64,000 bases of DNA from NCBI RefSeq assembly GCF_000218625.1, contig NC_015672.1, positions 2,331,451-2,395,450 on the forward strand. The letters run 5' to 3'. Position 1 is the stretch's first letter. The number at the start of each line of letters is the position of its first letter. The notes under the pieces are model-generated. The model was given only the letters and a program-made list of their open reading frames with translations, was not told the origin of the DNA and did not search any database. The position numbers and the translations under genes are program-made. This DNA is from Flexistipes sinusarabici DSM 4947. GTDB taxonomy: Bacteria > Chrysiogenota > Deferribacteres > Deferribacterales > Flexistipitaceae. Of this stretch, positions 12,885 to 18,515 are shown piece after piece.

Positions 12885-14165
12885 ATGTTGAATAGTACAG
12901 CGTTATATTATCTTCTTGCCGGCTCTAAATACTATAGTTTCCTGGATAGCAAAGATTTTGTCCGTCAAGTAAGAAACTATTCAGAGAAAGAAATAGAATA
13001 TTTTTTTAATAACAGGTTTATAAGGCATGAAAAATGGTTCAGAAGATACCTTAAAATTTTAATAGCTGTATTCACAGTAAACCTTCTTGCCAGAAAGTTT
13101 GAGCGTTATCTTTCCCGTTTGTGCTGTTTCTATGATCTTAGCTGCTCCAGATACGCTCCGGCAACGCTTATGGCACTTAGAGCCTTTAATAAAAACAGGC
13201 AATTTTTTAATATTGAGTTCGATCGGTTTATTTTTCTCAGGGAATTGATTTACATAGTTAATTCTCGTGTTAATGAATTTTGTAAATGTACAAACCTTTA
13301 CCCTGATAGAATTCAGTTTATTCAAGGCAATACCCCATTAGGTGTTGAAATGGAGTTTTCAAATAAGGGTACTGCAGCAGGCAGATTTCTTGAAAGGGGC
13401 AAAGGGGATCCTCTGGTTAATTTTTCAAAATATCATTATTACCATTTAACAAATTTTATGTGGCGTTTCGGCGCTTATATTGATTCTGACACCCCTTTTA
13501 AGCAATTTATTAAAAAAGGAGGATTTTTGGAATATACGTTTACCGTTCCAGATAAGTTTCTGCAAACGTCTATGCCTCTGACTAAAAGTCCTGATTTTGC
13601 CGGTAAACTTATTAATGAGGCCGTTAAGTTTACACCTGTGCAGCCTCACAGTCTTCACATAACCGTACAGAAAAATACCGGAAAACACAAACTGCCGCTG
13701 CCTTCTTTTGATGAGATACTTTTTCTTCTGTTTTGCAGCGGGCAGTTTTTGTGCAAAGACGGCAAAATTGTTGAAAGCCGGATTGTGGAAGAAAACATGA
13801 AAGATATTGTTTTGCTCAGAAAGCGCAAAAATTACAAAAAATGGGTGGATACTGTAGAGTTCAGCCATATGCGGCTGTGCAGGGATTTTATTCGGAGAAA
13901 TGTCTATGAGCCGTCAATCATGTTAATGGTCGCATATAAGAATTTGTTTGCGTTTGCGGATATTTTCCCTTATACAAATAAGCTCAGGCAATGGGGAAGA
14001 CGGCCCTATCTGCCGGCGTTAAATCCTAACGACATGTTTGAAATTATCAGAAAAGGCCTTGATGAGGAAAAAGCTTTACCTGAGCATTATAAAGAATATA
14101 TTGTTGAAAAAGTAAAAGAATTTTACTTTTTTAACAAATCTATTGTAATGAATAAAACAGCTTGA
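12885..14165 (+). CDS. Predicted amidoligase (carboxylate-amine ligase of the glutamine synthetase/GCS-like fold)
   Basis: A 426-residue protein with no firm named family by eye. Several features point to the COOH-NH2 ligase (amidoligase) superfamily. There is a GVEMEF strand with the paired glutamates at residues 155 and 157, a GGFLEYTF strand near 212-219, an HSLH pair at 255-258 and an ESR motif near 297-299. In this fold such Glu, His and Arg residues bind metal-ATP and substrates. The first 145 residues are alpha-helical and Lys/Arg/Phe-rich, of unknown role. The next gene, 9 bp on, encodes a gamma-glutamyl-cyclotransferase-like protein, a partner reported for predicted amidoligases. The ORF starts at ATG 12885 without a visible ribosome binding site. 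Function remains predicted. Confidence 0.55.
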   Translation: MLNSTALYYLLAGSKYYSFLDSKDFVRQVRNYSEKEIEYFFNNRFIRHEKWFRRYLKILIAVFTVNLLARKFERYLSRLCCFYDLSCSRYAPATLMALRAFNKNRQFFNIEFDRFIFLRELIYIVNSRVNEFCKCTNLYPDRIQFIQGNTPLGVEMEFSNKGTAAGRFLERGKGDPLVNFSKYHYYHLTNFMWRFGAYIDSDTPFKQFIKKGGFLEYTFTVPDKFLQTSMPLTKSPDFAGKLINEAVKFTPVQPHSLHITVQKNTGKHKLPLPSFDEILFLLFCSGQFLCKDGKIVESRIVEENMKDIVLLRKRKNYKKWVDTVEFSHMRLCRDFIRRNVYEPSIMLMVAYKNLFAFADIFPYTNKLRQWGRRPYLPALNPNDMFEIIRKGLDEEKALPEHYKEYIVEKVKEFYFFNKSIVMNKTA

Positions 14166-14174
14166 GGAGAAATT

Positions 14175-14672
14175 GTGCCTAAAAATTATAACGTTTTTGT
14201 ATATGGGACTCTAATGAAAGGTTTTGACGGATATAAAAAATATATGTGTAAGGGGAATTATATAAGCAACGGCTCCTTAAAGGGAATTATGTACCATACC
14301 GGTTCAGGTTATCCTGCAGTTATCTATGACAGTAAAAAAGGCGGTGAGGTAGCCGGGGAACTCTACAAAGTCGATGAAAATTTGATGAAAGAGCTCAGGC
14401 GATATGAGGGTATAGGCTCATTGCTAACATGTTATGAAGAGAAACTGGTAAAAATCCAAACAAAAGATGGTGATATACCGGCCAGAGTTTTTGTGGTTTC
14501 ACCCTTCTGGAAAAATCTTATTAAGCTTTCAGGTGTATTGGTGAGCAACGGCGACTGGAAAAAGTTTGTAACAGCTCCGCCGAAAAAGGCTTGGCAGACA
14601 ATAGCACCTGCTATCCTTTTTTTCGTTTCTTTTATATTTGTTTTTCAGATTATTTTTAAGATAACGGGATGA
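14175..14672 (+). CDS. Gamma-glutamylcyclotransferase-like (AIG2/GGCT fold) protein with C-terminal membrane anchor
   Basis: A 165-residue protein starting at GTG 14175 with a good ribosome binding site (gaggag). The N-terminal VFVYGTLMKG is the substrate-binding YGTL loop of the GGCT/AIG2 fold. GELYKVDENLMKELRRYEG follows the usual acidic strand and helix. After about residue 140 a hydrophobic stretch (IAPAILFFVSFIFVFQIIF) forms one membrane span, an uncommon addition that would place the domain at the inner membrane. GGCT enzymes release 5-oxoproline from gamma-glutamyl amines. The gene directly follows the predicted amidoligase and is likely co-transcribed with it, suggesting they make and break the same amide or isopeptide bond. 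Confidence 0.72.
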   Translation: MPKNYNVFVYGTLMKGFDGYKKYMCKGNYISNGSLKGIMYHTGSGYPAVIYDSKKGGEVAGELYKVDENLMKELRRYEGIGSLLTCYEEKLVKIQTKDGDIPARVFVVSPFWKNLIKLSGVLVSNGDWKKFVTAPPKKAWQTIAPAILFFVSFIFVFQIIFKITG

Positions 14673-14834: not shown

Positions 14835-15071
14835 ATGAAAAATATAAGCATAAAAAAGCAGTTTATTTTTATTATAGGCCTGGCGTTTCTTGTCCAGCTG
14901 ATTATTCTCGTGGCCTTTCTTCTATTTTCACAGTATCAGTATTACAAAGATTCCACAAAACTGGCATACCGGCAGGAAGTTAAAAATACCAGAGAAAAAG
15001 TTCGGCGTGAAGTGGAGCAGTTATACAGCAGGAGTTTATCAGTTATAATCAAAAATGTAGTCCTAAACTGA
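14835..15071 (+). pseudogene. N-terminal fragment of a membrane sensor protein, cut by an IS element
   Basis: Residues 1-35 (MKNISIKKQFIFIIGLAFLV onward) form a positive-inside membrane span followed by a charged helix, as at the start of sensor kinases or chemoreceptors. The native sequence stops around 15055, and the last few residues belong to the inserted IS1634-type element. A receiver-like fragment on the far side of the two IS elements (18149-18515) may be the other end of the same hybrid sensor. If so, the sensing and kinase parts have been lost. Confidence 0.6.
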
Positions 15072-16604
15072 CTTAGTTTTTTGAAGAATGGCGTCAAATC
15101 GGGATTTAATTTTTTCCATGCGGGCTGATTTGTAGTACGTGTATATATGCATTTATTGTTGACATATATGTTTTTGTGGTTTATACATAAGTATGTTTTT
15201 GGGAAAAGTAGAGTCCAAAAGAAAATCAGGGTATACGCATACAACCGTGCAGCTGGTGGAATCATACAGAAATGAAGAGGGTAAGAGCAGAACAAGAATT
15301 CTTTATCATTTCGGTCCATTGGATAAATTTCTTCAGGCTGATGCTGACAAGCTTGTAGACAGTGTATTGAAGATGAAGGGCGAGGTATTTCTTGATCATT
15401 TGGAAAAATTTGGTTCAGCTAAAAACTTTGGAGATTTGTTTACCATATTCCGTATATTAAAGGAGCTAAAGTTTTTCCAGGAAATAGAAAAGATTAAGGA
15501 GAGTGAAACCCGTATAGAGTTTGATCTGGTAGGCCATATTAACGCATTGATCTCAAATAGAATTAATGACCCTTCGAGTAAACTAAAGTTATTAAGCTGG
15601 CTTGAGTTAGTATATTTGCCGGAATTAAAATCAAGCGGAATCAACTATAATAACCTATCAAGATCGATGGATTTTTTAATAAAGCATAAGAAACGTCTTG
15701 AAGATCGTCTTGCAGAGAGCGTGCTGAGTATTTTTGATTTAAGCCTGCGCATGTGTTTTTATGACATGACTTCGAGTTATTTTGAGACGAACAATTTAAG
15801 TGATTCAGATATACGTTGTTATGGTTATTCAAGGGACAACCGTTCAGACAGGGTACAGGTGACTATAGGTGTAGTAATGACAGAGGAAGGTATTCCGATA
15901 GCTCATTATGTGTTCCCGGGCAACACAGCAGATGTGAGTACCTTGCAGGAAGTGGTAAAAGATATAAAGGATAGATTTGGAGACTTTCGTGAAGTTTCGA
16001 TAGTAACGGACAAGGGGATGACAAGTGACAAGAATATAGATTATTTACTATCCGGTGATCATTCATTTATAGTTGGAGAATCCAAGACTAAAAAGATATC
16101 CAGAGAGATATTATCAGAAGCTAATACTGAGCAGGAGGACAAAGAGAGCGGTTTTACATATGAAAAAGTTGTACCGTATAAATATGAAGTTGACGGTATT
16201 AAAAGACTTTGCAATTTACGTTATGTTTACAGTTTTAATCCTGAGACGTATCGCTTGAATGCTGAAAAATTCAAGGTAAAGCTTGCTGATTATGAAGAAA
16301 AGCTTTCGGAGATAAATGTTAAGGATATAGATTCAGCAGATAAGTATAGTCAACTTAAATCCTGGCTAAAATCACACGGTATGGTTAAGTGGTTTGATTT
16401 GTCTATCCAGGGTGACGTTGTTATTTCTAAATCCAAGGATTCGGTTCTGTCTTCAGTTCAAGCCGGTTTTGGCTGGTTTTTAATAAAGTCCAACTTATCC
16501 TGGGAGTGGAACAAAGAAGAGCTTGTGTCAGGTTATAAGACATTATGGAAAGTGGAGCATGGTTTTCGTGAGTTAAAGCATTCATTTGATATCCGTCCTA
16601 TGTA
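15056..16604 (+). mobile_element. IS1634-type insertion sequence, 3'-truncated
   Basis: Left boundary approximate (near tgtagtccta). The element contains the transposase frame from 15193 and ends abruptly at 16604, where an IS5-type element begins. A second, complementary piece of the same element lies at 37920-38501 on the other strand. Confidence 0.7.
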
Positions 16605-16605
16605 G
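15193..16605 (+). pseudogene. IS1634-family transposase, lacking the last ~88 residues
   Basis: 470 of an estimated 558 residues remain. The DDE catalytic residues can be picked out: Asp in FYDMTSSYFE, Asp in IVTDKGMTSDKNI, and Glu in WKVEHGFRELKHSF near the C-terminus. The frame ends right after DIRPM, where the IS5-type element starts. The minus-strand copy at 37920-38501 continues past this point (YHWTERRIRAHVFL...), showing what is missing. Loss of the C-terminus probably inactivates it. Confidence 0.88.
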
Positions 16606-18148
16606 TTAGCCCTGAGAAACTAGATAACTATTTGATAATACTTGAGTTAACCAAGGAAATATGCTAAAGTAATCCCACAGAAAAGTAAAGGAATAAGCAA
16701 AAAACCCGGGGGATTATATGCGTCCTAAGAAGCAAGATTCGACGACACAAGAGCTTTTAGAACCACTGCTTGTTAACATTATAGATATGAAACATCCATT
16801 AATACAATTAGCAGATAAAATAGACTGGGAATATTTTGAGAAAGAATTTGGCAGTCTTTATCACCGTAACGATGGTCGCCCAGGAATTCCAATGCGTATG
16901 ATGGTTGGGTTTCATTATTTGAAATACACGTACAATTTGAGTGATGAAGACGTGGTGCATGGCTGGAAAGAAAACCCTTACTGGCAGTACTTCACTGGAG
17001 AAAAGGTATTCCAGACAAAGGTGCCGATAAATCCAACCAGCATGACAAGATTTCGGAATCGTTTAAAAGAAGAAGATTTGTTGAAGTTTTTAGAGGAGAC
17101 AATTAACACTGCTTTTCGTAGTGGTTATCTTAATAAGAATGACGTAAAGAAAGTAGCTGCAGATACGACGGTGCAGGAAAAGAACATAACGTTTCCAACG
17201 GACATAAAACTTTTTTATACAATGATCAAATATCTTGTGAAATTTTCAAAGAAGCATGAGATAAGGTTAAAGGAGACACATGAATATTCCGGCAAGAAGC
17301 TATTGATGAAATATAGTGGCTATGTTCATGCGAAACAGTACAAGAGAGCGGGTAAGGCAGTAAAAAAGATGAAGACAAAGATGGGCAAATTATATCGTTC
17401 TATAGAAAGGGTTTTACCTGAGGAATTGAGGAATTCGGATGAGTTTCAACAGCTAAAGTTATTTTACGAGAGTTTGTGGAATCGGAGTAAAAAGAGCAAG
17501 AACAAACTTTACAGTCTTCACAGTCCAGAGGTTGAGTGCATTAGCAAGGGCAAGAGCCATAAGAGGTATGAGTTTGGTAACAAAGTAGGTTTTGTTGGTA
17601 CATTGAAGAAGAATTTTATACTGAGTTGCAAATCATTTCACGGCAATCCTTATGACGGTCATACATTAGAAGAGAATTTATGTGAAGCAAAAACCCTTTT
17701 GGGTAGTAACGGTACAATAGATACGATATTGGTAGATTTGGGTTACAGGAAGCACAATTATAGAGGGGATGCAAAAGTCCATGTAGTTCCACGCAGTATG
17801 AAGAAATTCAAAGTTAATTTTAAGAGGTTATTGAAAAGACGAAGTTGTGTTGAGGCGACGATAGGTCATACTAAGCGAGATAACCGGATGGACAGAAATT
17901 ATCTGAAAGGCAAAGAGGGAGATAAAGCTAATGCGATTTTGGCAGCAAGTGGACATAATTTAAGGCTGATACTGGCCTTTCTTTTATTTTTTCTCAAAAA
18001 ATTTATGGATAATATTGCAAAAAAATTAGCAAATTTTGCAAACGAAGTGTTTCTGAATAAAAAGTATGCCAAAAAATATGTATAGTTTACATTTAATAAA
18101 CAAAAATATTGGCAAATTTTATGAAAATATACCTTTTTCAGGGTTAAC
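16605..18148 (+). mobile_element. IS5-family insertion sequence, apparently complete (~1.54 kb)
   Basis: Imperfect terminal inverted repeats GTTAGCCCTGAGAAA (16605-16619) and, on the other strand, GTTAACCCTGAAAAA (18148-18134) match at 13 of 15 positions. A TA dinucleotide flanks each end (16603-16604 and 18149-18150). It carries one intact transposase gene. Left and right flanks come from different genes, so a deletion or recombination accompanied or preceded insertion. Confidence 0.8.
16718..18085 (+). CDS. IS5-family transposase, intact
   Basis: A 455-residue transposase. The N-terminal domain reads LADKIDWEYFEKEFGSLY and GRPGIPMRMMVGFHYLKY, typical of IS5-type enzymes. The DDE core has AADTTVQEKNITFP (first Asp), DTILVDLGYRKHNY (second Asp) and RRSCVEATIGHTKRD (Glu). 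The C-terminal tail is Lys/Phe-rich. A large Lys-rich insertion (about residues 200-275) separates the first two acidic residues. The gene fills the element between its terminal repeats and looks functional. The frame of the downstream receiver fragment also begins inside this gene, but that is an accident of the insertion. Confidence 0.92.
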   Translation: MRPKKQDSTTQELLEPLLVNIIDMKHPLIQLADKIDWEYFEKEFGSLYHRNDGRPGIPMRMMVGFHYLKYTYNLSDEDVVHGWKENPYWQYFTGEKVFQTKVPINPTSMTRFRNRLKEEDLLKFLEETINTAFRSGYLNKNDVKKVAADTTVQEKNITFPTDIKLFYTMIKYLVKFSKKHEIRLKETHEYSGKKLLMKYSGYVHAKQYKRAGKAVKKMKTKMGKLYRSIERVLPEELRNSDEFQQLKLFYESLWNRSKKSKNKLYSLHSPEVECISKGKSHKRYEFGNKVGFVGTLKKNFILSCKSFHGNPYDGHTLEENLCEAKTLLGSNGTIDTILVDLGYRKHNYRGDAKVHVVPRSMKKFKVNFKRLLKRRSCVEATIGHTKRDNRMDRNYLKGKEGDKANAILAASGHNLRLILAFLLFFLKKFMDNIAKKLANFANEVFLNKKYAKKYV

Positions 18149-18515
18149 TAGTTTACGGTTTATGATTGTGGATGAAAATGTTCAAGACAGGGAAAGTCTC
18201 AAAAATGTTTTGGAATTTCTGGGTTACAGTGTCGTGAGCGTAGCCGGATACACAGAAGCTTCAAAACATATCAGAGCCGGAGAAAACTACGAGTTTATTA
18301 TAACAGCGATTCGTTCTGACAGTTGCATGGATTTTGAAAAATTTCTTCTCTCTGTGAAGGACTTCCTTGAGGATTCTTCAGTTGTTATTGCCTCGGAAAG
18401 AGCGGAAGAGAGTTGTTTTCAATCTTTTGAAAATGATGAGAAGATTGCTGGGGCCATACACAAACCGTATAAAATGGAAGAATTGGAGAGGATAATAAAA
18501 TCTGTCAGGCAGTAA
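18149..18515 (+). pseudogene. Degenerate response-regulator receiver domain fragment
   Basis: About 120 residues with the CheY-like pattern: RFMIVDENVQDRESL (acidic pocket), YEFIITAIRS (phosphoacceptor strand), SSVVIASERA (switch Ser) and AIHKPYKMEEL (conserved Lys-Pro). The phosphoacceptor Asp is replaced by Ala (TAIR where TDIR is usual), so it should not be phosphorylated. It has no start of its own apart from an ATG at 18162. It is probably the C-terminal receiver of a hybrid sensor whose N-terminus lies at 14835. It overlaps the convergent yraN by 11 bp. Confidence 0.6.

Follow-up and report, generated by a model that had tools for sequence, protein, structure and literature searches.

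In butirosin biosynthesis, the ligase BtrJ adds a gamma-glutamate that the GGCT-family enzyme BtrG removes, a division of labour that resembles the one proposed for the gene pair analyzed here, although BtrJ is an ATP-grasp enzyme and belongs to an antibiotic cluster, unlike the protein of 426 residues with which we are concerned. In Pfam, an Aig2 neighbour is noted for Amidoligase_2 (PF12224). The association between amidoligase and AIG2 genes is of a known kind, since it has been reported in phages: both lie side by side in Arthrobacter cluster AL phages (PMC5513430), and both are present in LUZ24-like phages (PMC3890496). When phage Salgado was checked in this work, a PF12224 match (2.7e-35) and an adjacent GGCT gene (PF06094, 2.1e-18) were found. 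Enzymes of the GGCT type release gamma-glutamyl units as 5-oxoproline (PMC4919911), and in mouse GGACT the catalytic elements are a YGTL motif and Glu82 (PMC2954230).

The stretch of DNA analyzed here (the window, 64,000 nucleotides) comes from Flexistipes sinusarabici DSM 4947, of the order Deferribacterales, whose genome is a single contig of 2,526,590 bases. On its + strand, an amidoligase-like coding sequence, tentatively assigned below to the glutamine synthetase (GS) fold (12885..14165; 426 aa, ATG start), precedes one for a gamma-glutamyl(amine) cyclotransferase-like protein (GGCT/AIG2; 14175..14672; 165 aa, GTG start) that matches PF06094 (8.1e-21, residues 7-129). The TGA stop of the first ORF is separated by 9 nt from the second, and direct reading of the sequence reveals a GAGGAG resembling a ribosome-binding site over that stop codon (14164..14169, +). 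The first-pass annotation of this DNA had described such an ORF of 426 residues followed, nine bases on, by a GGCT/AIG2 ORF, in agreement with the ORF coordinates and the PF06094 match. Homologues of the 426-residue protein were found in 14 of 60 related genomes and its frame was open in nearly all the homologous loci of that search, so that the ORF can be considered a real gene.

The protein belongs to a family without a name in Pfam, NCBIfam or PHROGs: neither of the first two databases had a family for it, and the search of PHROGs gave nothing significant. Eleven of the 46 genomes searched in the order Deferribacterales carried homologues, with identities of 42-97% within the order (the window's own genome excluded), and the remaining three homologues (28-30% identity) were in genomes of another family of the same phylum. 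A profile search added members in Desulfuromonadales, Tharpella, other delta-proteobacterial MAGs and Kiritimatiellota. In the phylum of one Desulfuromonas MAG, 12/297 genomes carried a family member; the phylum Kiritimatiellota provided eight full-length members, and three more, from other, unrelated families, appeared among 385 sampled genomes. Against phages, tblastn with the 426-residue protein returned matches by chance only. When the family profile was run against PDB sequences, it retrieved only adrenergic-receptor helices and a lipoprotein, which were discarded as chance matches. The ligase gene of L030, in a contig binned as Chloroflexi, is almost identical to that of L033, from a Desulfuromonadaceae MAG, and its assignment to Chloroflexi is probably a binning error. 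The literature searched, to which the 2009 amidoligase survey (Iyer et al., doi 10.1039/b917682a) did not belong, held no description of the family, its distribution or the single-chain fusions presented below. The earlier proposal of an undescribed system is thus right as regards the protein family, which is unnamed, but not as regards the presence of an amidoligase beside AIG2/GGCT, known from the phage reports cited above.

Conservation was counted over 57 non-redundant members; L115, more distant, was found later. Eighteen of the 426 positions are invariant in the 57 members (G153, E155, E157, G162, A165, W193, R194, G196, D200, G213, E216, P231, S256, H258, G286, R299, E325 and R330), and they are grouped in motifs, all encoded on the + strand. 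E155 and E157 lie in the strand GVEMEF (residues 153-158; 13341..13358); W193, R194, G196 and D200 in WRFGAYIDS (193-201; 13461..13487); G213 and E216 in the strand GGFLEYTF (212-219; 13518..13541); H258 in HSLH (255-258; 13647..13658); R299 in ESR (297-299; 13773..13781), where E297 is kept in 56/57; and E325 and R330 in VEFSHMR (324-330; 13854..13874). GVEMEF, GGFLEYTF, HSLH and ESR are located where the first-pass annotation had placed them, and among the residues singled out by it E155, E157, H258 and R299 are invariant, while H255 is conserved only in 54/57, with F in three. The fused homologue L115 has Q at the position of H258 and K at that of R194. In terms of order, WRFGAYIDS fits the W-x4-D-x-S motif of the aligned Amidoligase_2 members and VEFSHMR their [VI]-E-[FI]-R, and the acidic, His and Arg residues of the COOH-NH2 ligase type (E155, E157, E216, H258, E325, R299, R330) appear in the expected arrangement. 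Read along the chain, the family motifs G-x-E-x-E, W...D.S, G..E, H-x-H and E-[FY]...R follow one another as they do in Amidoligase_2 members. The N-terminal region (residues 1-145; 12885..13319, +) had been thought to be basic, helical and without relatives. It is basic (24 K/R versus 13 D/E) and predicted to be helical (AF2 secondary structure), but it is an integral part of the same family, with a conservation of 0.42 versus 0.57 in the core.

AlphaFold models were obtained for the window protein (pLDDT 74, pTM 0.82, weak at residues 166-226) and for its homologue L036 (pLDDT 83, pTM 0.88). With the first of them, glutamine synthetases occupied ranks 1-5 of the PDB matches (E 0.01-0.03), and the top match in a viral library was a phage amidoligase, that of Salgado (E 2.8e-4, prob 0.99). 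With the L036 model (best E 5e-3, prob 0.99), Dop took PDB ranks 1 and 2, the GCS2-type 1tt4 came third, and three glutamine synthetases preceded PafA, at rank 7. Foldseek TM-scores were low for both models (0.2-0.37), every PDB E value being 0.001 or higher. Since the top matches of the two models fall in one superfamily and the conserved residues follow the expected order, the GS fold was tentatively assigned to the protein, which is probably an amide-forming enzyme related to glutamine synthetase, as judged from these models.

At the level of sequence profiles, neither the window protein nor any of 30 members had a match to Amidoligase_2 in Pfam searches up to E = 10, a PF12224 profile search of the window's genome gave nothing, and no Pfam ligase match (PF12224, Pup_ligase, GCS2, Gln-synt) was obtained in any of those 30. 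The hhalign comparison of the family with Amidoligase_2 was not significant (E 0.026 at a probability of 1.9%, against E 0.56-0.59 for reversed controls), nor was any of the runs against either of two Amidoligase_2 alignments, whether over the full length or over the core alone. Membership in PF12224 is therefore not claimed for the protein, which is named here amidoligase-like. A ligase-like fold, as postulated from the sequence, is favoured by the structure searches, with modest scores, but its inclusion in Amidoligase_2, GCS2 or other curated families is not. The likeness to the phage systems with Amidoligase_2 and AIG2 extends to the motif order (G-[VI]-E-x-E, W...D.S, E, H-x-H, [VI]-E-F-R), the best viral fold match and, in Salgado, the adjacent GGCT gene. 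In contrast with the phage proteins, to which it has no significant sequence or profile similarity, the 426-residue family has a large extra N-terminal helical region, is chromosomal in several bacterial phyla and includes 11 single-chain fusions; moreover, a glutamine amidotransferase gene follows in the Arthrobacter phages, and none was seen beside members of this family.

The GGCT partner belongs to the GGACT family (PF06094; 75.2 bits, cut-off 22.8) and keeps YGTL and E78, matching YGTL and the catalytic Glu82 of the mouse enzyme (PMC2954230). It differs from GGACT in a predicted C-terminal membrane helix (residues 143-161; 14601..14657, +; 19-residue hydropathy 2.59). Nine of the 11 Deferribacterales partners have such a hydrophobic stretch at the C-terminus, two close relatives being without it; the predicted helix hints at a substrate near the membrane in this order. 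A further departure from GGACT is seen in Desulfuromonadales partners, which have a Cys-rich tail. In convergent GGCT proteins (L021, L022, L024, L033, L036, L037), and also in L014, a C-x3-C is followed by a third Cys, and this tail could possibly bind metal. The sole GGCT protein of the f10 genomes (L014, 2392-3621 on the - strand, and G049 and G050) is longer, with 397-411 residues and an extra N-terminal part that, in L014, looks methyltransferase-like by eye.

The idea that homologues keep the GGCT neighbour was borne out beyond the initial claim, in tandem, convergent or fused form and in several phyla. In Deferribacterales the two genes are in tandem in all 11 loci, with a spacing ranging in most of them from an 11-base overlap to 25 bases. 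The GGCT gene of the delta-proteobacterial members is mostly downstream and convergent, and the 57 members include 21 convergent and 8 fused cases. All eight full-length members of Kiritimatiellota carry a GGCT-like domain at the N-terminus of the same chain; PF06094 was found in the fused L039 (1.4e-14), and also in L089 and L092. Three additional fusions from unrelated genomes (PF06094 E 3e-16 to 1e-20) bring the total to 11. In a tree of the 57 proteins, tandem and fused members form one clade each (support 100 in both cases) and convergent ones are in other clades. Thirteen of the 57 are devoid of a GGCT neighbour; ten of these make up one nested paralogue clade, and at least seven genomes with a copy of that clade also have a second one near GGCT. 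Two of the other three are f10 members, with PF06094 elsewhere in their genomes; in L032, no GGCT gene was present in 1.3 kb of downstream sequence. PF06094 was detected in 14/14 ligase-bearing relatives versus 13/46 of the other genomes searched; genomes that carry it have one to three copies, with two in that of the window. By eye, no neighbour other than GGCT was common to all lineages, and the remaining neighbours vary from family to family. In many Desulfuromonadales loci (L022-L028, L033, L036, L037) the genes preceding the ligase look exonuclease-like and acyl-CoA-synthetase-like, and one for a CBS/cyclic-nucleotide-type protein is found beyond GGCT.

The family, its conserved residues, the resemblance in fold and the linkage of the two genes were observed directly. 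As regards catalysis, donor and the logic of making and removing a bond, we infer, with a confidence only a little above even, that one member of the pair makes a gamma-glutamyl amide and the other erases it, the ligase joining the bond and the GGCT protein releasing it. The 426-residue protein would be a carboxylate-amine ligase with the GS/GCS fold that depends on ATP and metal; going by motif order, metal ions would be held by E155, E157, E216, H258 and E325, and R299/R330 would bind ATP or an acyl phosphate. The gamma-carboxylate of glutamate would be converted into an acyl phosphate and then into an amide with an amine; candidates for this amine are a peptide N-terminus, the side chain of a lysine or some small amine. 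In the other direction, the GGCT protein would turn the gamma-glutamyl amide into 5-oxoproline and the free amine. Because cyclotransferases of the GGCT type require that the alpha-amino group of the gamma-glutamyl unit be free, the bond made is most simply a gamma-glutamyl one and, if both enzymes act on the same bond, the donor is most likely free glutamate rather than a glutamate at the C-terminus of a protein tag. The fusions suggest that ligase and GGCT work on one product pool. Several facts weigh against the maker and eraser proposal: GS-fold proteins can be hydrolases, and the L036 model has one of these, Dop, as its first PDB match; TM-scores are low and the hhalign result with Amidoligase_2, of about 2%, is slightly better than the reversed controls; L115 has Q at the position of H258; and in one clade of paralogues the neighbouring GGCT gene is missing. 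A broader version, in which glutamate is linked reversibly, by its gamma-carboxyl, to an amine of a protein or of the envelope by a widespread bacterial writer-eraser system, whose two activities are fused in a single bifunctional chain in several phyla, is at present speculative and we give it a low probability.

Among the alternatives, it is unlikely, though worth considering, that a ligase of the same fold uses the carboxylate of a peptide or protein as acyl donor, in a protein or envelope modification similar to that of the Pup ligase, while GGCT acts on some other bond or on one that has been processed. The presence of Dop and PafA, which share the GS-type fold, in PDB ranks 1-7 of the L036 model and the predicted C-terminal membrane helix of many Deferribacterales partners, suited to a membrane or envelope substrate, are consistent with it. 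However, the 5-oxoproline reaction of GGCT (PMC4919911) needs a free alpha-amine. In the loci inspected, no recurrent small ORF resembling a tag, Pup-like or otherwise, was noticed by the pair. The family differs from PafA and Dop in having no Pfam Pup_ligase match and in having GGCT in place of Pup/proteasome genes. A catabolic gamma-glutamylation of the PuuA/GlnA3 type, trapping an amine as gamma-glutamyl amide for detoxification or use, with GGCT finishing or reversing the process, seems doubtful to us. Known GS-fold gamma-glutamylamine synthetases do work in this way and the GGACT-type partner would fit; yet, in the loci inspected, no gene of amine catabolism was noticed to recur next to the pair, and Pfam does not recognise the protein as a glutamine synthetase (no Gln-synt match). 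Set beside glutamine synthetase and PuuA-type enzymes, the protein has the fold match and a similar complement of Glu, His and Arg, whose roles are assigned by analogy, but its N-terminal helical part is unrelated and the TM-scores are low. That the GS-fold protein is instead a hydrolase or deamidase like Dop, so that gamma-glutamyl bonds are cleaved by the two gene products one after the other and formed by neither, would agree with the depupylase heading the L036 matches, but we regard it as improbable: two hydrolases on one bond offer no clear reason for repeated fusion, the full putative sets of metal and arginine residues are kept, and ligases are far more common than hydrolases in the GS fold. 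Finally, two housekeeping genes that are neighbours without a functional link, as the GGCT gene located elsewhere in two f10 genomes and the paralogue clade without that neighbour might indicate, are very hard to reconcile with three arrangements in separate clades and 11 fusions, unexpected by chance with one to three PF06094 genes per genome, and the existence of fusions already contradicts this view.

With this protein, a family of probable amide-forming enzymes comes to light that was missed by Pfam, NCBIfam and PHROGs. The cyclotransferase dedicated to it restricts the range of likely products to gamma-glutamyl compounds, and this makes substrate screens feasible, while a natural single chain combining a ligase and its possible reversing enzyme is unusual and provides a compact protein for testing. 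A role in glutathione metabolism was also considered and set aside, given that neither of the two families searched for in the genome of the window, GCS2 (PF04107) as the gamma-glutamylcysteine ligase family and LamB_YcsF (PF03746; 5-oxoprolinase PxpA), was found there.

With respect to the surroundings of the pair, a large gene resembling those of hybrid sensor kinases is broken in the window, with two end remnants at 14835-15028 and 18145-18515, and two transposase ORFs (15193-16605 and 16718-18085) replace around 2.6 kb of it. In the sister genome G001 (L102) this sensor kinase-like gene is intact, as a single open frame of 1067 codons.
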